Assembly: GCF_001275135.1 (NCBI RefSeq)
Contig: NZ_LFQU01000001.1
Location: forward strand, 62,001 to 126,000
Length of the DNA: 64,000 bases
DNA from: Xylanibacter rarus
Lineage (GTDB): Bacteria > Bacteroidota > Bacteroidia > Bacteroidales > Bacteroidaceae
Direction: 5' to 3'
Part shown: piece after piece, positions 34,827 to 62,939 of the stretch
How the letters are laid out: each line of letters opens with the position of its first letter
Position numbering within the stretch: the first letter of the stretch is position 1
Position numbers and translations under genes: made by a program
The notes under the pieces: model-generated
The model's database searches: none
What the model was told of the DNA's origin: nothing
Seen by the model: only the letters and a program-made list of their open reading frames with translations

Positions 34827-36281
34827 TTATTGTTGCAGGAAACCTTTACCTTTATCAGTAAGATAGTATTTCTGTTGCGGACTCTTGGAGCCTATGGGAT
34901 AAAGTGAAAGGACCAAACCGGAATTTATTGCCGGATGGATATAGTTCTTTAAGAAATTCCTTTTATCTTTCATTCCCGTTTTCTCCATGATTTCTTTAGC
35001 AGAGAGAGTGTTGTTCCCAATAGCAGACAACAGTTTTCCTAACTGTGGGGTTACTGTGGGGTTACTATAGGGTTGCTGTGGGGGTGCTGTGGGGTCTTGT
35101 CCTACTGTAGTTCTTGTATAATGAAACACAATCCATACAGCATTGCCGTCGGTATGAAACTCCGGATCCGGAATACCGACACGGCGACATTCGTTTACCA
35201 TAAGGGCTATGCCACGTCCCCAACTCTCCAATACTGCACTTTTGTACAGCACATTGGCTACTATCAGATTTTGTGGTTCGGAATTGTGGCCACCCAACAG
35301 TTTCTCAATGGTAATATCAGGCGGAAATGTTCCGCTGTTTTCAATCTCCACGCGGTCATCATAGATAGCAATCCCGACTGAACTGCCGGGGCGATGGTAA
35401 ACACGATGTGCAAAAGCATTTATGCAACATTCTCTCAATGCCTTATATGGCACATTCAGTTCCTCTTCTCTGTACAAACCTTCAATTTTACCGGAAAGGG
35501 ACAAATGCTTGAAGAAAAATGCCATTGCAGCATCCAGCAAGTTGAATATATTGCCTGTCACACGCTGATTATCTAAAAATTCATCTTTTGTCGTTCCTTT
35601 GAACCGGGCTAAACGGAGCAGACATTGGGGATAATGGTAGAAGTTCCGTCCGAATAGGACAACGGAAGCATTGTTCAGCTTTCCATCATTCAACAAGTCA
35701 AATTTTTCAAGGATGGTTCGGACATCCTCCTGCATAGAACCTTCCGGCAAACGTCCGCCTCTGATTCCTCCACGTACTGCGCCCAAGATTGCCGTTTCGT
35801 CAAGGTCGGATATTTTCAAGCCGGGATTTTGCATGGAATCCCAAGCATAGGTTCCGCCTCGCTGCATAACCAACAGGTTGTATATACCCTGCGGCATGGC
35901 AGATGTAACGCTCTCTATCCGTTGATAAGCCCTCCCCTTATAGGTGAACGGGCGCATATATCGTTGTTCTTCCGCTGATAAAGCTATAACACTTTTGTTC
36001 GTTCCCGGAATGTCTGTATAGGATATATCAATGGTCGCAAACGGCTCGATTCGTCTGATGGTTTCCGCAATATCGCGCTTCGTCTTGTCGCTCACTTCCT
36101 GACCGATAATCTTTCCCTTGTCGGTTACACCGAACAGCACCGTGCCGCCCGTACCGTTCAAGAAGGCACAAAGAGTTTCCATTCCACGCTCCAACTGCCC
36201 GGTAGTTTCTTTGAACTCAACTGTCCCGCCTTCGGCTCCGGCAATCAGTCCATTCAATATTTCGAGGTTATCTATTTTCAT
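34827..36281 (-). CDS. AlbA_2 (Schlafen-like) putative DNA-binding / ATP-binding protein
   Basis: A 484-residue protein. Residues 1-120 carry the AlbA_2 fold: EGGTVEFKETTGQLERGMET with the conserved FKET, then FLNGTGGTVLFGVTDKGKII. The middle (ECCINAFAHRVYHRPGSSVG) and ENSGTFPPDITIEKLLGG form the HATPase_c-4-like region, and a winged-helix region ends the protein. This domain set is known as putative transcriptional regulator or ATP-dependent DNA helicase-related; some relatives are in defence loci. Its role in this element is unknown. A TAACTTTG box lies at 36302-36309. Confidence 0.75.
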   Translation of the reverse strand: MKIDNLEILNGLIAGAEGGTVEFKETTGQLERGMETLCAFLNGTGGTVLFGVTDKGKIIGQEVSDKTKRDIAETIRRIEPFATIDISYTDIPGTNKSVIALSAEEQRYMRPFTYKGRAYQRIESVTSAMPQGIYNLLVMQRGGTYAWDSMQNPGLKISDLDETAILGAVRGGIRGGRLPEGSMQEDVRTILEKFDLLNDGKLNNASVVLFGRNFYHYPQCLLRLARFKGTTKDEFLDNQRVTGNIFNLLDAAMAFFFKHLSLSGKIEGLYREEELNVPYKALRECCINAFAHRVYHRPGSSVGIAIYDDRVEIENSGTFPPDITIEKLLGGHNSEPQNLIVANVLYKSAVLESWGRGIALMVNECRRVGIPDPEFHTDGNAVWIVFHYTRTTVGQDPTAPPQQPYSNPTVTPQLGKLLSAIGNNTLSAKEIMEKTGMKDKRNFLKNYIHPAINSGLVLSLYPIGSKSPQQKYYLTDKGKGFLQQ

Positions 36282-36301
36282 CCGTCATTGATTAATACTT
36301 G

Positions 36302-36309
36302 CAAAGTTA
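36302..36309 (-). promoter_or_regulatory. Promoter -7 box for the AlbA_2-domain gene
   Basis: TAACTTTG read leftward, 20 bases before the ATG at 36281. No matching TTTG at -33. Confidence 0.45.
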
Positions 36310-36409
36310 ATGATTTTAATCGGCTTTCCGGCAGATAATAGAGTGATTGTAAATGAAGAAGGATAAGAAACCGTATAATCCGGCCGCTTATCCTTTGTTT
36401 GGCATTCGT

Positions 36410-37021
36410 TTATCTCCTCATCCGCTCCAATTCATCGTCATGTCGCATCTTCGCGTTCAGTTTGTCCTGCATCTTTTCAAGGAAGTAGGTGCGACTGTCG
36501 CTTTTCCTGCGTTTGATGTCCGTATAGAAGCGGTAGCAGTCTTTGGACTCCACACCGAAAAAGGAATAGAGGACAGGAGCAAGCTCTTTCAGCGAAGCCT
36601 TGCCGCCATTGATGCAGCCGGTGGCGTAGAGGGCATAGATTAGTTCTACCAACTCGACGGCATTACCGGTCCATTGCAAGGCTGGGACTGTGGCTTTGGT
36701 TTCGGATGTGGATGTTAGTGGTGGCACGGAGGTAATTGCAGAAGCGGATACCATCTTCTGCATCTTTCGGATGAAGGATAACGCCTTGCGGATATACACA
36801 GTGACGACATTCTCCTCCGATACCGACAAGTTCTGTGGATGGTGCTGTAATTCGATTTCGGCAAAAGCCAACGCCACAATAATATGCTTGGCATCATTGC
36901 CGCCGTAGCACAGGTTTATTACTTCCTGCACGAATCCGCCGTATGCCGTTTCCGTGCTACCGTTGTCTTTTCCGTTTATCATGGCGAAAAACTGTGTTTC
37001 CGCCAGTATGAGATGGTTCAT
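36410..37021 (-). CDS. rteC: Excision regulator RteC
   Basis: A 203-residue protein of the RteC family, with TGNAVELVELIYALYATGCI, NGGKASLKELAPVLYSFFGV and DIKRRKSDSRTYFLEKMQDK as the conserved C-terminal region. In CTnDOT, RteC is made after RteB activation and binds upstream of the xis2c-xis2d-orf3-exc operon to start excision. Its upstream region contains the palindromes listed at 37054-37265. A candidate RteC operator is the 17-bp palindrome at 62923-62939. Confidence 0.9.
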   Translation of the reverse strand: MNHLILAETQFFAMINGKDNGSTETAYGGFVQEVINLCYGGNDAKHIIVALAFAEIELQHHPQNLSVSEENVVTVYIRKALSFIRKMQKMVSASAITSVPPLTSTSETKATVPALQWTGNAVELVELIYALYATGCINGGKASLKELAPVLYSFFGVESKDCYRFYTDIKRRKSDSRTYFLEKMQDKLNAKMRHDDELERMRR

Positions 37022-37053
37022 TATCTTTTCTGTTTTGAGGGTTTACACTTGTT

Positions 37054-37075
37054 TATCAGTGTGCGCACACTGATA
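37054..37075. promoter_or_regulatory. Perfect 22-bp palindrome at the rteC start region
   Basis: The palindrome centres on GTGTGCGCACAC and runs TATCAGT...ACTGATA. It lies 33-54 bases before the rteC ATG and spans the predicted transcription start (about 37070) of the adjacent -24/-12 box, so it could be an operator or a leader hairpin. Confidence 0.6.
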
Positions 37076-37081
37076 TATGGT

Positions 37082-37095
37082 GCAAATCATAGCCC
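37082..37095 (-). promoter_or_regulatory. Sigma-54-like -24/-12 promoter for rteC
   Basis: Read leftward GGGCTATGATTTGCAC has GG and GC exactly ten bases apart and a perfect TTTGCA at -12, though the -24 box is AGGGCT rather than TGGCAC. RteB carries the GAFTGA loop that contacts sigma-54. A TAnnTTTG box is absent here (TATGATTTG has one base too many). Confidence 0.5.
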
Positions 37096-37143
37096 TAAAC
37101 ACGAGAAAAGATTGTGAGAAAATTGTACTACATTGTTTTTCAG

Positions 37144-37174
37144 AAGGATAAAATTCAAAAATAATTTTATCCTT
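37144..37174. repeat. Inverted repeat upstream of rteC
   Basis: Perfect 12-bp arms AAGGATAAAATT and AATTTTATCCTT around a seven-base loop. It has no T-run in the gene direction, so it may terminate weakly after the dihydrofolate-reductase-like gene or bind a regulator. Confidence 0.5.
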
Positions 37175-37195
37175 GATTGCATCCCTTGTGAAATG

Positions 37196-37265
37196 TGTTC
37201 AGATTCTGAACATGTGTTCACTTTCTGAGCACGGAAATCCCGCCAAGATGTTCATAATCTGAACA
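37196..37265. promoter_or_regulatory. Three iterated 17-bp palindromes upstream of rteC (putative RteB sites)
   Basis: TGTTCAGATTCTGAACA (37196-37212), TGTTCACTTTCTGAGCA (37215-37231) and TGTTCATAATCTGAACA (37249-37265) share TGTTCA-N5-TGARCA. They lie about 125-195 bases upstream of the predicted rteC start, the usual distance for NtrC-type enhancer sites. Assignment to RteB is inferred. Confidence 0.6.
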
Positions 37266-37267
37266 TT

Positions 37268-37681
37268 TTATGCCCGTGGCTCTTTATGATAGGTAAGCCG
37301 GATTACTCCGTCCCTATAAGTTTTGTTCTCCATAAGCCGCCAGTCATTCATAGGTAGTGCTGACTTGAAAAAATGCGCTCCGTTTCCGTCGATGGTTGGA
37401 ACAACGTATAGTATGATTTCATCTATCACGTTCATCCGTAACAGTCCGTTGGCATATTCGGTATTCCCGGCAGTTACTTCCAACAAATGGCAAATGCTTC
37501 CACCTTCCTCCCTCCATTCTTGAAGTACGGATACCGAATAGTCGGATGTCAGCTTATACAGGGCATTGGCACGTATTTCATCCATACCGTAATCTTCGGT
37601 TTGAAGCAACCGCTTCCGGGGATGCAGTTTCATCGGACAGCCATCTATTGAGATAACGGCAAGTAATTGTATTTTCGCCAT
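37268..37681 (-). CDS. Dihydrofolate reductase-like (RibD C-terminal) protein
   Basis: A 137-residue protein from the ATG at 37681 (MAKIQLLAVISIDGCPMKLH). The ISIDG start, the middle EWREEGGSICHLLEVTAGNT and the late VIDEIILYVVPTIDGNGAHF are those of the RibD_C/dihydrofolate reductase superfamily. It is smaller than true DHFR and the substrate is unknown. It sits between rteB and rteC, as similar genes do in some CTnDOT-like elements. The frame is open further upstream through a terminator hairpin, but the first 45 codons there lack family similarity. Confidence 0.8.
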   Translation of the reverse strand: MAKIQLLAVISIDGCPMKLHPRKRLLQTEDYGMDEIRANALYKLTSDYSVSVLQEWREEGGSICHLLEVTAGNTEYANGLLRMNVIDEIILYVVPTIDGNGAHFFKSALPMNDWRLMENKTYRDGVIRLTYHKEPRA

Positions 37682-37710
37682 AACGTATTTTCTTTCCTTT
37701 TTGGCGAGGC

Positions 37711-37737
37711 AAAAAAGTAGCGTGCAATTCACACTAC
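37711..37737 (-). terminator. Terminator hairpin in the leader of the DHFR-like gene
   Basis: Leftward, GTAGTGTG and CACGCTAC (one G-U pair) around AATTG are followed by TTTTTT, ending 30 bases before the gene's ATG. It is either the end of the rteAB transcript or the expression platform of an attenuator. Confidence 0.65.
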
Positions 37738-37752
37738 TTTCAAGCGATGGCT

Positions 37753-37896
37753 CTGGTAAAGCCTTTACGGAGAGTACGTGAATGCACGCTATGCGTAAGC
37801 ATAGCATAAGCATCACGCAATCGTCTCCGTAGTTTCAATTTACCAGATTTTCGCTCGAAACGCCTTGCGGTCTTATGTCTATATCATCGGCGAAAA
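37753..37896 (-). ncRNA. Structured leader RNA candidate (attenuator or riboswitch-like)
   Basis: Four helices nest around one apex: CTGGTAAA/TTTACCAG (37753-37760, 37839-37846), TACGGAGA/TCTCCGTA (37766-37773, 37824-37831), CGTGA/TCACG (37777-37781, 37813-37817) and GCTATGC/GCATAGC (37788-37794, 37799-37805). A further hairpin TTTTCGC/GCGAAAA spans 37848-37896. All lie between a leftward TAACTTTG box (37934-37941) and the terminator at 37711. No known family is recognised. Confidence 0.5.
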
Positions 37897-37933
37897 GTTA
37901 CCCAATCGCCTGCTATTTTCTGAAATACAATTG

Positions 37934-37941
37934 CAAAGTTA
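37934..37941 (-). promoter_or_regulatory. Promoter -7 box for the DHFR-like gene leader
   Basis: TAACTTTG followed by GC, read leftward, in the short gap after rteB. It would give a leader of roughly 250 bases that includes the structured region. Confidence 0.5.
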
Positions 37942-37973
37942 ATTAATTATTGCCATTTACAGCCATACTCCGG

Positions 37974-39281
37974 TCAGTTTTCTTCATTCAATCCATACTC
38001 TACCAATTTATTATACAGCGTTGTCCTGCCGATACCCAGTATCTTTGCAGCCATTTTCTTGTTACCGGCTGCTTGTTTCAAAGCACGCAGGATACGTCCT
38101 CTTTCTTCATCCCCGCTCTTCAATGTAAAACAAGCGGAAGTAGCGGACGGTTCATTGTCAAGTTCCAAATCGGCTTCGGTTATCATATCGCCTTCTGATT
38201 GCAGGACTGCCGTCTGTATCTTCTGTTTCAACTCGCGCACGTTGCCCGGCCACGCATGGGCGAGCAGGGCATTACGGGCAGATGCGGCAAAACCTTTTAC
38301 TTCACGTTCCAACTCACGGTTTGCCATTTCACGGAAGAACTCGGCCAATGGCATGATGTCTTCCGGGCAGTCGCGCAAGGGCGGCATGGTTATCACATAC
38401 TCCTGCAAGCGATAGAGCAAATCCTGCCGGAACCGCTTTTCCGTTACGGCTTTCTGCAAATCCTCGTTGGTTGCAGCCACTATCCTCACGTTGGCTGTTT
38501 TGTCCTCCTTTGCACCGACGGGACGGTAACGGCGTTCCTGTATGGCGCGGAGCAGCATCTGTTGCATCTCCATTGTTAGGTTGCCCACTTCGTCAAGGAA
38601 CAGCGTGCCGCCATCCGCTTCCAGAAAATACCCCGTCTTGTTTGCTTCGGCACCCGTAAACGCGCCCTTGACGTGTCCGAAGAAGGCGGATTGTATCAAT
38701 GACGGGGACAAGGCTCCGCAGTCTACTGCCACAAAAGGTTTATCGGCAAGTTTGCTTTGTTGGTGTATATGTTGTGCGATATGTTCCTTGCCCGTACCGT
38801 TCTCGCCCAGTATCAGCACGCTCATCCGGGTGGTGGCTACAAGGCGCACACGTTTCTTGATTTTCTGATAGGCTTCGCCCTGCCGGACGAATATCGGAAT
38901 GTTCCATTGTAGTCGCTTTTCATGTTCTTTTTGCAGGGTGCGGATAAGCGGTATCAGTTTATCCTCCAACAACTGTTTCTGTATGTAATCCTTTGAGCCG
39001 AGCTTCATACTTTCCACTGCCGTATGCACCTCCCCGTAATTGGTCATAACGATAAACACCTGCTGTTTGTCGTTGGCACGCATCCACCGTAACAATTCTA
39101 TGCTTTCACCGTCGGGGAGGCGTAGGTCGGCAACGACAATATCATCCACCTCTGACTTTGCCAATAGTTTCTTGGCAGTGGCAAGATTATATGCCGACAT
39201 AGTATCGAAGCTGTCTTTCTTCAGCAGGTTGCAGACATAATCGTTATAGACGGGGTTGTCCTCAATCACAAATACTTTCAT
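37974..39281 (-). CDS. rteB: Response regulator RteB (NtrC-type, sigma-54 activator)
   Basis: A 435-residue protein from the ATG at 39281 (MKVFVIEDNPVYNDYVCNLL). The receiver domain holds the phosphorylatable Asp in VVADLRLPD at about residue 52. The AAA+ domain has Walker A GENGTGKEH at about 158, GAFTGAE at about 207 and GGTLFLDEVGNL. A Fis-type helix-turn-helix at the C-terminus (KMAAKILGIGRTTLYNKLVE) completes it. RteB is phosphorylated by RteA and activates rteC in CTnDOT. It overlaps the rteA end by 20 bases. Confidence 0.9.
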   Translation of the reverse strand: MKVFVIEDNPVYNDYVCNLLKKDSFDTMSAYNLATAKKLLAKSEVDDIVVADLRLPDGESIELLRWMRANDKQQVFIVMTNYGEVHTAVESMKLGSKDYIQKQLLEDKLIPLIRTLQKEHEKRLQWNIPIFVRQGEAYQKIKKRVRLVATTRMSVLILGENGTGKEHIAQHIHQQSKLADKPFVAVDCGALSPSLIQSAFFGHVKGAFTGAEANKTGYFLEADGGTLFLDEVGNLTMEMQQMLLRAIQERRYRPVGAKEDKTANVRIVAATNEDLQKAVTEKRFRQDLLYRLQEYVITMPPLRDCPEDIMPLAEFFREMANRELEREVKGFAASARNALLAHAWPGNVRELKQKIQTAVLQSEGDMITEADLELDNEPSATSACFTLKSGDEERGRILRALKQAAGNKKMAAKILGIGRTTLYNKLVEYGLNEEN

Positions 39282-41607
39282 CCGACGACCTCCTTTCCTT
39301 TTGCGCAAGTTCTATGATAACTGTTCCCATACGAAGCATGGCATCCACGCATTTCCGCAATTCCATTTCGGAACATTCAGATTCTTGATGCAGCAGTTCA
39401 TACAGGTTCCACAAGGGTTTGTCAGCACGGATAACAGCCCATGAACTTCGCTGACGGTGCATCCATTCGTCCAACGCCTTGCGGTCATTCCTCTCCATGA
39501 TTTCCCGGACAGCCTGCATATCCTTTTCTGTTTCGGTTATCAAACGGTCGAGCATCGCCCGTTTGTCACCATATGCAAGCAGAGAGGACAAGTCGGGAAG
39601 TTCATCCTTGTCCGTACTTGTCAAAAGGCATTTGTCTGATACAGCAACCAGTTCGGAAATGGAAAATGGCTTGAACAGGCAGGCGGTAAATCCATTTTCC
39701 AACAGCTCCTCTTCGCTGCAACTGCCGGAGGCGGTCGCCACGACAATGGGAATCTCTTTCGAGTTGCTGACACTTGACGAGCGTAACAACTCCAACACCT
39801 CATAGCCGTTAATCTCCGGCATTTTCATATCGGTTATCATGAGGTCGTATGTGTGCTGCCGCATGGCTTCCATTGCATCGCCAATAGTGGTGAACGTGTC
39901 GCAATGCACACCTATACCAGCATACATTTCCTTTGTCATGGATAATACCATCGGATTGTCGTCCAATACGATGACAGAATAAGGTCTTTCTATATGAGCC
40001 AGACTTTCTGCGGCTGTCTGTTCTTTAATACCAATATCGGCAGTGTTCATTGGCAACTCCACAGTAAAACGACTGCCTTCTCCTTTTTCGCTTTCCAAGC
40101 GTATAGTGCCGCCAAGCATACCGACAATCTGTTTCACAATGCTTAACCCCAATCCGAAACCGTCTTGCGTTGCGGCGTTGGAAAGCCGCTCGAACGCTCC
40201 GAACACTCGCTGTTGTTCTTCCGCACTCATGCCGGTTCCGGTGTCCTCTACTACAAGGGTCAGCCTATTGCCGTCATAGCTTATGACAAGTGAAACGCTT
40301 CCGGCATTCGTGAACTTGACGGCATTGCCCAGCAGGTTGTCGCATATCTGTATGATGCGCTCCTTGTCGCCATTCAGGATAATACCCTCCGGGCACTCGA
40401 TGGTAAGTTTAAGATCTTTTGCTTCTGCTTGTTGCGTAAACTCCGTTTGCAACAGCTCCGCGATGTTTTCCAAACGAAACGGACGGACATTCGCCTGTTC
40501 CTTGCCGCTGTCCAAGCGGAAGAAGTCAAGCAGGGAGTTGAGCATGTCGGTCATTCTCTTGGAGGCTTGCAGGATATTGTCCGCATAACCGCTTATCTTT
40601 TCTTCTTCGTTGTCCTGCATCAGTTCCGCATATCCATGTATGGCAGTCAGTGGTGTGCGTAGCTCGTGGGTGATGGTGTGCATCGCTTTCTTGCGTGAGG
40701 CTATCAACGATTCGTTTTGTTTTACGGACTTTTGCAGTTGCCCGATTAAATCTGTTGTCTTACGTTTGTACTGCTTGATGCGGGTGGCATAGCGGTGAAT
40801 GATGATGTATGAAATAATGAGCAACAGCAGCATGACACCCGTTATGATACCTACCTGCAAGAACGATCTTTCACGCATAGCGGATATTTCCGCCTCACGT
40901 TCCTGCAAGTCAGCCTGCACCTTGTGGTCCATCTGCTGGATAAGGGTTTGCAGTTGGCGGTTCAGTTCCGCATTGCGGCTGGCAAGGCTGTCGGCATATT
41001 CCGACAGACGATGGCTTTGGGCACGTTGTTGCGCTATCATATCACGGTTCAGTGTGTAGAGCATCGTGGTGGTCGTCGTCGGAGGTGCTTCCTGTTTCTT
41101 GCCGAACAACCCGAGAAAACCTTTCCTCCTCTGTTTCTTCGGCTCTTCCTGCCTGCTCGTTTGCACTATCACCGGCACCTGCTTGGCTATCCGGCGGTTG
41201 ATGTCCGCCTGTTGTTCCAGAGCCTCCATGATGGCGCACAGCCGCTTTTCCTTGTCCTCCAGCAAGTGGCGCACGCTGTCTATGCGCACCGATTCGTAAT
41301 GGCTCTTGAAGCGGCAAAGCATACTATCCACCGTCATCCGTTGCCGCCGGTATGCCGCCACATCCTTATCGTCCCATTCCAGCACCGACTCGCCCAAAAG
41401 AGACAACTCCACCACACCCACATACGCATCGTGTGTTTCCTTGCGGAAGCGGTTGATTTCACGGTTCTCCCGTTCCAGCAACTCCAAGTCGCGCCATTCT
41501 CCGAGCCACGTGCAGATGATGCCGCCCACCAGCAGGACTATCAACAGATAGCCTGCGGCAAGCAGCTTGCGGAAATGCTTGGTAGTGGTAACGAATTGTT
41601 CGCTCAT
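39262..41607 (-). CDS. rteA: Hybrid sensor kinase RteA
   Basis: A 781-residue inner-membrane kinase. Two membrane helices (about residues 12-35 and 250-270) flank a periplasmic or linker region. HisKA follows with ITHELRTPLTA at about 313, HATPase with NLLGNAVKFT and GFGLGLSIVKQ at about 482, and a receiver with LMITDMKMPE at about 593. A C-terminal HPt-like part ends with MHRQRSSW. In CTnDOT rteA follows tetQ in one operon; here no tetQ precedes it, so tetracycline control may be absent or different. The signal is unknown. Confidence 0.9.
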   Translation of the reverse strand: MSEQFVTTTKHFRKLLAAGYLLIVLLVGGIICTWLGEWRDLELLERENREINRFRKETHDAYVGVVELSLLGESVLEWDDKDVAAYRRQRMTVDSMLCRFKSHYESVRIDSVRHLLEDKEKRLCAIMEALEQQADINRRIAKQVPVIVQTSRQEEPKKQRRKGFLGLFGKKQEAPPTTTTTMLYTLNRDMIAQQRAQSHRLSEYADSLASRNAELNRQLQTLIQQMDHKVQADLQEREAEISAMRERSFLQVGIITGVMLLLLIISYIIIHRYATRIKQYKRKTTDLIGQLQKSVKQNESLIASRKKAMHTITHELRTPLTAIHGYAELMQDNEEEKISGYADNILQASKRMTDMLNSLLDFFRLDSGKEQANVRPFRLENIAELLQTEFTQQAEAKDLKLTIECPEGIILNGDKERIIQICDNLLGNAVKFTNAGSVSLVISYDGNRLTLVVEDTGTGMSAEEQQRVFGAFERLSNAATQDGFGLGLSIVKQIVGMLGGTIRLESEKGEGSRFTVELPMNTADIGIKEQTAAESLAHIERPYSVIVLDDNPMVLSMTKEMYAGIGVHCDTFTTIGDAMEAMRQHTYDLMITDMKMPEINGYEVLELLRSSSVSNSKEIPIVVATASGSCSEEELLENGFTACLFKPFSISELVAVSDKCLLTSTDKDELPDLSSLLAYGDKRAMLDRLITETEKDMQAVREIMERNDRKALDEWMHRQRSSWAVIRADKPLWNLYELLHQESECSEMELRKCVDAMLRMGTVIIELAQKERRSSDESICD

Positions 41608-41786: not shown

Positions 41787-42380
41787 TTAAGGCATCTGAC
41801 CACCGGCGATAGGTGGAATTTCTGTTAGTATGGGATTTCTCGGGATTGAGTTAAAAATTCTTTGGCCACGTATGGCTTGACTTGGAGGAGCGTTTTCATT
41901 TACATCAAGCCGATAACATCTATCGTTAAATGTTATAATTCCCCAAATACCAATGGTTCCTGGGATTCTCGCCAATCCTTCAGTAGGTTTAAAAAGAACA
42001 ACATTATCTATTATTCGATTTTTAACCGCCAGATTCCATGATGTTTTAATACTATTGTTAGGCGTTGGAATATGAGCAACATACCTAATGCCATTGTGCC
42101 TAAAACTGGCCATATAACACCCCGAAAAACCTGAACTTAAAGTATCTATGCCATTTGAAGCAACGACTGCTATTCCATCCGCAATATATATGACACAGGC
42201 ATAGTCTAATCTAAGAAAACGATAGTTACGGGTATATCCTTTTATTTGAAATGTCAAATTACTTTGCGTGGCAATCGGAGGGGTCAAACCTACATTATAA
42301 ATATTTTGATAATGAAACCGTGCAATATTTGTCATTACTGCTCGACTGTTTGGCAATCTTAATGCTTGAATCAAATTCAT
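41787..42380 (-). CDS. Hypothetical protein of the DUF2589 cassette
   Basis: A 197-residue protein with no signal peptide, membrane helix or recognised domain. It is Arg/Asn/Ile-rich and beta-like by composition (RNYRFLRLDYACVIYIADGI, SFRHNGIRYVAHIPTPNNSI). It lies four bases after the stop of a DUF2589 gene, so probably belongs to the same operon. Base composition is more AT-rich than the tra genes. Confidence 0.6.
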   Translation of the reverse strand: MNLIQALRLPNSRAVMTNIARFHYQNIYNVGLTPPIATQSNLTFQIKGYTRNYRFLRLDYACVIYIADGIAVVASNGIDTLSSGFSGCYMASFRHNGIRYVAHIPTPNNSIKTSWNLAVKNRIIDNVVLFKPTEGLARIPGTIGIWGIITFNDRCYRLDVNENAPPSQAIRGQRIFNSIPRNPILTEIPPIAGGQMP

Positions 42381-42384
42381 ATAT

Positions 42385-43089
42385 TTACTTACTGTTACTT
42401 TCGTTTGTTATAGGCTCGATACATGATGCCATTATATCCATCAGTTTAGACAGACCTTCGGTCTGCGGCTGCTGACTGGCTGTCACATGTATCTGGTATT
42501 TTGCCGTTTGGTTGGTCATGCGGGTGTTCTCGCGGGCGGTCGTGACTTTGCCGCTGATTTCCGCATTTATAAACCAATGTTTTGCAGAAGCTTTTGCCTC
42601 TACTTCTGCGTTGGTAGTGCTTTTTACGTTTGATGTATCGGTAACCTCCATCTGGAAATCGACATCCACGCGATCTATGAGCAGGGAAGGAATAGGCACC
42701 AATCCTATAAACGGAGCCTTGACACTTTGTGACATTGTTGTCATTTTTCCATCCTGCTGTATCGGTCTTTCGACATCGAATTCCAATATACGCGCTTTAT
42801 TGCCGCTTTTACCATCAAATGCAATTTGCTGGTAGAAATTCCATGCTGTCGCTGCCAATTCCTGTTGTGCTTCGGCTGCTGCAATAAGTGGAGCTGCAAT
42901 AAGTTCCCGCATGGGAAGCCCCTTGAATTTGTCAGTCACGTTTGAATCTGCTTTAAGAACTGGAGAAGTTTCTCTGTTTTGAGTCTCTTCCAATGCAGCG
43001 GAGATAATTTCTTTCGCCTGTCCGCTTACATTTTCATTCAAGTTTTCCGCATTTTCTTGTTGCCCTTGGTTCTTTATTTCTTCTGCCAT
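42385..43089 (-). CDS. DUF2589 domain-containing protein
   Basis: A 234-residue soluble protein. After a Gln/Glu/Asn-rich start, the blocks LPMRELIAAPLIAAAEAQQE, NKARILEFDVERP and GLVPIPSLLIDRVDVDFQME define the DUF2589 family. Function is not established for the family. A shorter paralogue lies directly upstream (43111), suggesting a two-component complex. Confidence 0.75.
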   Translation of the reverse strand: MAEEIKNQGQQENAENLNENVSGQAKEIISAALEETQNRETSPVLKADSNVTDKFKGLPMRELIAAPLIAAAEAQQELAATAWNFYQQIAFDGKSGNKARILEFDVERPIQQDGKMTTMSQSVKAPFIGLVPIPSLLIDRVDVDFQMEVTDTSNVKSTTNAEVEAKASAKHWFINAEISGKVTTARENTRMTNQTAKYQIHVTASQQPQTEGLSKLMDIMASCIEPITNESNSK

Positions 43090-43110
43090 AACATTTGAAT
43101 TTTAAAATTG

Positions 43111-43608
43111 TTAGATATTTTTTACAAAATCGTCAATAATTCGGGAAATGCTCTCCGGAGTCTCCTGAACCTTAAAATTGACGCAAACCTCCATGACATC
43201 ATCCGCATCCGGTTTTATGTTGCTCATCTGCATCTGGAGATTGGCTCTTTGTGGGCTGGATAACAATAAGTTGTTTTCCGGAATCTGTGATTCCACGCTT
43301 CCGACCTTCGCCTTGAACTTTATCTGCACATTATCCATCGCAAGATAATGATGGGATATCAAAGCTATAAGTGGAATATCAATAGTCTTGTCTCCAACCA
43401 TGATTTTTTTCGATTGGAACGTATTTGCGTTATTTGCATTTGTTCCTTCAAAAAGTCTGGTCAGATTTTGTATCTGATGATTCTGCAATGTATCTTGTGC
43501 ACAGTTTACGGCGTATTGCAAACCATTCATAATATCAGAGAATGAATTGGTTTGAACACTGTCCGGCTCATCGTCATTATTTTTCTTGTCTCTGTGAAAA
43601 AGTCCCAT
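43111..43608 (-). CDS. DUF2589-like protein, second copy
   Basis: A 165-residue protein paralogous in order of motifs to the neighbour: FSDIMNGLQYAVNCAQDTLQ corresponds to the N-terminal helix block and IPLIALISHHYLAMDNVQIK to the VPIPSL-type block. The C-terminal ETPESISRIIDDFVKNI replaces the partner's tail. No signal peptide. It shares an operon with 42385 and with the small frame at 43618. Confidence 0.65.
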   Translation of the reverse strand: MGLFHRDKKNNDDEPDSVQTNSFSDIMNGLQYAVNCAQDTLQNHQIQNLTRLFEGTNANNANTFQSKKIMVGDKTIDIPLIALISHHYLAMDNVQIKFKAKVGSVESQIPENNLLLSSPQRANLQMQMSNIKPDADDVMEVCVNFKVQETPESISRIIDDFVKNI

Positions 43609-62494: not shown

Positions 62495-62854
62495 TTATGT
62501 CCTCCTTCCTTTGGGTTTGCCGCCGCCCGTGCGCAGCGTGTGGTTGCGTTTCAGTTCCGTCAGTGTCGCTGCATCTTCTGCCACGGTGCAGTCTGCGAGC
62601 AGGCGGTCTATTTCCGACCGGCGGTAGCGGCATTTGCCGCGCAGCACGATATAGCCGATGCGCTGTTCGCTGCGCATACGTTGGAGGGTACGGGTACTCA
62701 CGTTCAGCAGGTGCGCCGCCTCGCGGGTGGTGAGCAGCATGTCGGAAGACTCTCCCTTCCTTTCACCGGAAACGGCACGCACATAGACCGCTATCTCGGC
62801 TATCTGTTCCGTCAGGGCGGTGAAGGCGGAACTTTCAATCGTTATCACTTTCAT
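62495..62854 (-). CDS. Helix-turn-helix excisionase-like protein (xis2c-like)
   Basis: About 119 residues from the ATG at 62854 (MKVITIESSAFTALTEQIAE). The HTH_17 block is LLTTREAAHLLNVSTRTLQR with the wing IGYIVLRGKCRYRRSEIDRL. By position it is the first gene of the excision operon, like xis2c, and should be the direct target of RteC activation. The 17-bp palindrome at 62923-62939 lies about 70 bases before its start. Confidence 0.75.
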   Translation of the reverse strand: MKVITIESSAFTALTEQIAEIAVYVRAVSGERKGESSDMLLTTREAAHLLNVSTRTLQRMRSEQRIGYIVLRGKCRYRRSEIDRLLADCTVAEDAATLTELKRNHTLRTGGGKPKGRRT

Positions 62855-62922: not shown

Positions 62923-62939
62923 TTACGTGACTCACGTAA
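62923..62939. promoter_or_regulatory. 17-bp palindrome upstream of the excision operon
   Basis: TTACGTGACTCACGTAA, perfect 7-bp arms. It is located about 35-55 bases upstream of a poor leftward -7-like sequence (GAATTTTG, 62885-62892), the position of an activator site; RteC is the natural candidate. Confidence 0.5.

Follow-up and report, generated by a model that had tools for sequence, protein, structure and literature searches.

The promoter of rteC is very probably sigma-54-dependent and driven by RteB, a reading in which the transcription start, the binding of RteB and the dependence on RpoN are deduced from DNA and protein sequences. In the proposed mechanism, RteA would activate RteB to its phosphorylated form, which would occupy two or three palindromes of 17 bp that lie about 120-175 bp ahead of the -12 element and assemble there into an AAA+ ring. 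The ring would loop to the sigma-54 RNA polymerase held at a -24/-12 box, the GAFTGA loop together with ATP hydrolysis would open the promoter, and rteC RNA would begin at or near 37070; RteC would then switch on excision and transfer.

In the window (the whole stretch of DNA analysed, 64 kb in length), rteC is preceded on its 5' side by a gap of 246 bp and then by a dihydrofolate-reductase-like gene, rteB and rteA, all on one strand (Table 1). The gap holds the three 17-bp palindromes, which start just past the stop codon of the dihydrofolate-reductase-like gene, followed by an AT-rich inverted repeat, the -24/-12 box and a 22-bp palindrome. The inverted repeat may signal where the operon upstream ends; at its place some relatives carry a GC-rich stem and then a T run, as read by eye. 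A dihydrofolate-reductase-like gene lies between rteB and rteC in many rteC loci, and that of relatives carries the name dihydrofolate reductase family in public records. The order rteA, rteB, rteC is that of the CTnDOT/CTnERL cascade. No tetQ match was found anywhere in the 64-kb window, and ahead of rteA (41787-43608) there are instead three open reading frames without NCBIfam match, so RteA and RteB are probably not tetracycline-induced through tetQ here.

Table 1. Features of the rteC control region and neighbouring genes in the window (coordinates of the window; distances of palindromes are from their centres to the -12 element).
Feature	Position	Strand	Remarks
rteC	36410..37021	-	203 aa, PF09357
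Perfect 22-bp palindrome over predicted start	37054..37075	.	spans -5 to +17
Conserved octamer TGTGCGCA	37062..37069	-	+2 to +9
Predicted transcription start (+1)	37070	-	inferred from -12 numbering; 49 nt upstream of rteC ATG
Predicted sigma-54 box AGGGCTATGATTTGCA	37081..37096	-	GG 37095-37094, GC 37083-37082
12-bp inverted repeat, 7-nt loop	37144..37174	.	between palindromes and box
Proximal palindrome TGTTCA-GAATC-TGAACA	37196..37212	-	122 bp upstream of -12
Middle palindrome TGCTCA-GAAAG-TGAACA	37215..37231	-	5/6 pairs, one mismatch; 141 bp upstream of -12
Distal palindrome TGTTCA-GATTA-TGAACA	37249..37265	-	175 bp upstream of -12; candidate RteB site
RibD-C/dihydrofolate-reductase-like gene	37268..37681	-	between rteB and rteC; Pfam match below cut-off
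rteB	37974..39281	-	receiver, sigma-54 activator AAA+ domain with GAFTGA, Fis-type HTH
rteA	39262..41607	-	hybrid histidine kinase

The search for RteC gave 61 loci in named genome contigs and matches in 35 of 393 order-level genomes (E up to 0.001); at E up to 1e-30, matches came from 4 of 395 phylum genomes and 55 of 399 family genomes, and 24 stretches with flanks, picked mostly for divergence, were added. No RteC relatives were found in viral contigs. RteC matched in 148 loci in all; 27 of these were removed (match not from residue 1, or less than 420 bp upstream), and the upstream regions of the 121 loci kept were reduced to 51 distinct 200-bp sequences and 18 families at 80% identity, 16 of which have a core promoter; the families of L159 and L090 have no recognisable core. 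Some places occur more than once among the 121 loci (the window, L063, L093 and L094 are one place), so counts by distinct sequence (51) or by family (18) are safer. The box and the palindromes described below stand above chance because they are conserved among these diverged relatives.

The initial annotation had described a GG-N10-GC box ending in TTTGCA upstream of rteC, which is indeed present at 37095-37082, with 10 nt separating GG (-25/-24) from GC (-13/-12). Taken alone, the box of the window is unremarkable, for when the 246-bp gap was shuffled 2000 times by mononucleotides, 341 of the shuffles (17%) contained GG-N10-GC. The TTG ahead of the conserved octamer served as anchor for each family except that of L156, which is without the octamer and was anchored by hand, and G(-13) in all 16 families is a product of this construction. 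In 11 of the 16 families, the window included, GG precedes this G by exactly 10 nt, and the best of the other spacings (0-59) were 11 and 27, with three families each, one of the spacing-11 families also having GG at 10. With the window excluded, 10 of 15 families have GG at N10 (P about 1e-10 from the GG frequency of each family, a value that assumes independent families, whose independence is only rough). The ten bases between GG and G(-13) differ widely among families, and the base at -12 is C in 12 families, T in two and G in two. The sigma-54 promoter predicted at first from the window is well supported by this conservation of spacing.

Compared with the consensus, the -24 element of the window matches at GG and two degenerate positions and no further. 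Set against the extended consensus TGGCAYR-N4-TTGCW, the box gives a mixed picture: it is absent among the sites with up to three mismatches to TGGCAYG-N4-TTGCW, and it ranks first of 808 positions under ad hoc weights. Near-consensus sigma-54 boxes elsewhere in the same genome numbered 9, versus 5 in the reversed control, a difference too weak to use.

Primary-sigma promoters of Bacteroides have the consensus TAnnTTTG at -7, and TTTG does stand ahead of the start in 13 of the 16 families, as in such promoters. The promoter might be read by the primary sigma factor, with TTTGC as a degenerate -7 element and RteB activating from afar in some other way. TTTTG is also carried by the upstream regions of xis2c relatives, where GG-N10 was found in none of the 19 testable distinct regions (L188 is not testable at this spacing), and GG at N10 is lacking from a large clade of rteC loci described below. 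Against this explanation, TA is at the required place ahead of TTTG in none of the 16 families, TAnnTTTG occurs in none of them from about -53 to the ATG, the enrichment of GG is confined to one exact spacing, and enhancers about 120-175 bp away with an intact GAFTGA loop are features of sigma-54 systems. We regard recognition by the primary sigma factor as very improbable, and the early preference for a model other than a plain TAnnTTTG promoter agrees with the comparison of families.

The RteB of the window matched PF00158, PF00072 and PF02954, all over cut-off. Its GAFTGA loop, pointed out from the window alone, is present and is kept, or replaced by a close variant, wherever it could be read in relatives. 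GAFTGA was found in 53 of 64 RteB hits (ten of the remaining 11 are partial and do not reach the loop, and the last, L090, is not a clear RteB) and in 44 of 50 distinct hits of a second RteB set, and the RteB of L054 has it as well. More distant RteBs have GSFTGA (L141, L156) or GAFTSA (L148, L149). Next to the two GAFTSA relatives (L148:4529-5821 and L149:4548-5840, rteC strand), the -24 element, TGGCATA, is close to the consensus and the -12 element, TTGG, is altered. The host genome encodes one RpoN, with the box ARRTIAKYRE; the RpoN box of E. coli is ARRTVAKYRE. The rpoN gene was present in all 51 rteC hosts searched, but since it may be near-universal in these bacteria, its presence supports the sigma-54 reading weakly. 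Public records already label RteB as a sigma-54 dependent transcriptional regulator, so this classification had been made before. According to an excerpt of one source, sigma-54 activators bind about 100-150 bp upstream and contact sigma-54 via GAFTGA (PMC7057263).

Three 17-bp palindromes upstream of the box had been noted and were confirmed, the middle one with one mismatch in the window and perfect in L004-L006. The distance of 125-195 bases first given for them fits if the predicted start is taken as reference. The number of such sites is ordinary, since TGTTC-N7-GAACA with up to one mismatch has three matches in the 64 kb versus 2.5 expected; all three fall within 70 bp. Within 270 bp ahead of the core, palindromes were counted that had TG...CA ends, a spacer of 5 nt and arms of 6 bp with 5/6 pairs or more. 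There were 19 over the 16 families, as compared with a mean of 1.0 in shuffles, where the highest of 200 had 5, and no other spacer from 0 to 12 exceeded six; the TG..CA rule was chosen after the sites were seen. Without this rule, perfect sites numbered 19 at spacer 5, 11 at spacer 3 and 13 at spacer 7, and palindromes with the same centre and longer arms would give the raised counts at spacers 3 and 7.

The positions of the palindromes are also shared, and a comparison of rteC upstream regions, of the kind proposed as a check, shows them recurring in 12 of the 16 family representatives. In these 12, the window included, a palindrome is centred 120-124 bp from -12; nine representatives have a second one at 138-145 bp (an AT-rich match in L018 was not counted), and six, namely the window and five others, have a further one at 165-177 bp. 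By the criteria applied, L121, L039, L148 and L156 have no 17-bp palindrome with a 5-nt spacer.

The half-sites of these palindromes vary among representatives: TGTTCA or CGTTCA in the window, L141, L145 and L150-L153, TGTTTC in L143, TGTCCG in L154, TGTAAA in L157, GTCAA in L072 and L162, and TGTATG in L017. For 12 RteBs, the distance between half-sites was correlated with the distance between recognition helices (Mantel r = 0.64, p = 0.002, half-sites hand-picked, the picks for L017 and L162 not being from the proximal site), and the correlation was 0.69 (p = 0.001) after the rest of RteB was partialled out; for half-sites and the rest of RteB, r was 0.12. When proximal half-sites were used instead, r was 0.60 (p = 0.004) and the partial value 0.61 (p = 0.001), and when L017 and L162 were omitted the values were 0.74 and 0.68. 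Such covariation with the recognition helix is what an RteB site should do, and together with the shared position it gives good support to the palindromes as the RteB enhancer that had been predicted.

The palindromes might instead bind another regulator at a sigma-54 promoter, with RteB acting elsewhere or from solution. In L004 and L030 palindromes are kept with no RteB detectable in the fetched locus, which would suit such a regulator, as would the four representatives without a clear palindrome. Yet the half-sites follow the recognition helix of RteB more than the rest of the protein, and 17-bp sites suit dimers of a Fis-type HTH. Furthermore, the gene that directly follows the palindromes, rteC, is known to require RteB (PMC1976400). 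These points make another regulator most improbable. In L059, neither RteB nor palindromes were found in the fetched locus; a joint loss of the two was considered and is contradicted by L004 and L030.

The predicted start follows from standard -12 numbering, which leads to the same position, 37070, as the initial annotation had given. In 113 of 118 loci a purine stands at this position. The position is followed by the octamer TGTGCGCA, which occurs in 118 of the 121 rteC upstream regions and in 15 of the 16 core families, exactly at +2 to +9 in 113 regions and one base off in five. GTGTAA is often found 13-14 nt after the octamer in rteC leaders. Six folds of the 5' leader RNA gave no structure better than shuffles, and Rfam had no match up to E 0.1 within 36000-38000. 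The octamer is asymmetric and not itself palindromic, and it is a conserved element with no known role.

In the window the octamer is embedded in the 22-bp palindrome, which is present and perfect as described initially, and which was proposed to be an operator for feedback control; RteC or another element protein would act on it. The palindrome is unique in the window (its inner 20 bp has no second match within three mismatches, 0 being expected), and it spans the place where a repressor would block initiation. Among family representatives, perfect 22-bp symmetry is seen only in that of the window, the others having 6-12 bp around the octamer, and TGTGCGCA was found in none of 30 upstream loci of xis2c relatives, the closer of which share a different palindrome. 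The proposal of a feedback operator is not supported by these comparisons and is unlikely. On the same evidence from xis2c relatives, the octamer as an RteC operator was rejected for now. The other palindrome, TTACGTGACTCACGTAA (17 bp, 62923-62939), lies upstream of the xis2c-like gene of the window (62495-62854), is kept with small changes in closer xis2c relatives and differs from the octamer element; at the excision promoter it is a candidate for binding by RteC.

The main exception to the sigma-54 layout is a CTnDOT-like clade made up of families 1, 2, 3, 4 and 7. The predicted layout stands for the window and 10 other families; it does not extend cleanly to this clade, where GG at N10 was found in none of the 89 loci (of the 121). 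One G is kept in 55 of these loci, GG is at N11 in 23, and neither is seen in 11. The sigma-54 consensus, TGGCAC-N5-7-TTGCT in an excerpt of PMC12316311, would allow the N11 register. In a tree of RteC (28 chosen rows, labelled by family), the non-GG families form one side of a branch with 100/99 support, which amounts to one change, and the clade is nested within the GG families if the midpoint root is right.

A tetQ match was detected in 36 of the 54 loci longer than 7 kb in the non-GG clade (families 1, 2 and 4), the test being presence within the locus and not exact adjacency; among loci of this length in the same clade, family 3 had none in four and family 7 none in one. In GG families, one of 25 loci longer than 7 kb had tetQ (L142). 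The family of the window had none in eight such loci, among them the 64-kb window and with some of the eight being the same place again, so that the combination of tetQ with rteA-rteB by which a CTnDOT-type tetracycline-inducible element is recognised is not seen there. Unlike the clade that holds most tetQ loci, the element of the window is without tetQ and has a clean -24 GG. The lineage with most tetQ copies probably has a derived, weaker-looking -24 element, and CTnDOT itself would belong to this clade.

Both observations can be brought together in a tentative reading, somewhat less probable than its negation, in which the -24 element became weaker secondarily in the clade with most tetQ copies and the octamer is a new start-site element of rteC sigma-54 promoters. 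Under it, TGTGCGCA would have stayed unchanged as RteC, the specificity of the enhancers and the remainder of the promoter diverged, and such fixity would mean that the octamer is read by a conserved host factor or acts at the 5' end of the RNA. If true, the octamer would be a second gate on activation of the element.

The arrangement at rteC resembles promoters of the glnA/NtrC class, in which GG at -24 and GC at -12 are likewise separated by 10 nt, 17-bp palindromes 100-180 bp upstream serve in pairs as activator sites, and the activator, like RteB, is a receiver-AAA+-Fis protein with GAFTGA. Unlike that class, the rteC promoter is on a Bacteroidales conjugative element, its enhancers follow the stop codon of the preceding gene, a fixed octamer covers its start, and its -24 is degenerate in one large clade. 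Systems of this kind are already known. Among the literature matches listed, which do not take in the primary papers on CTnDOT regulation, none describes this instance, the geometry that its relatives share or the octamer, and none deals with the promoter of rteC or with sigma-54 acting there.

The conjugative elements of this family, which is very common in the gut, require rteC expression as an early step towards excision and transfer. In CTnDOT, RteB activates rteC, and in the CTnDOT/CTnERL cascade it is needed for rteC expression (PMC1976400); if sigma-54 is needed, this long-known requirement would gain a concrete promoter with exact bases. The comparison also brings out a conserved start-site octamer, and it suggests that CTnDOT-like elements, whose -24 is degenerate, may give results that do not apply to the family at large. 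If sigma-54 is needed, the mobility of these elements would hang on a host sigma factor and its controls.
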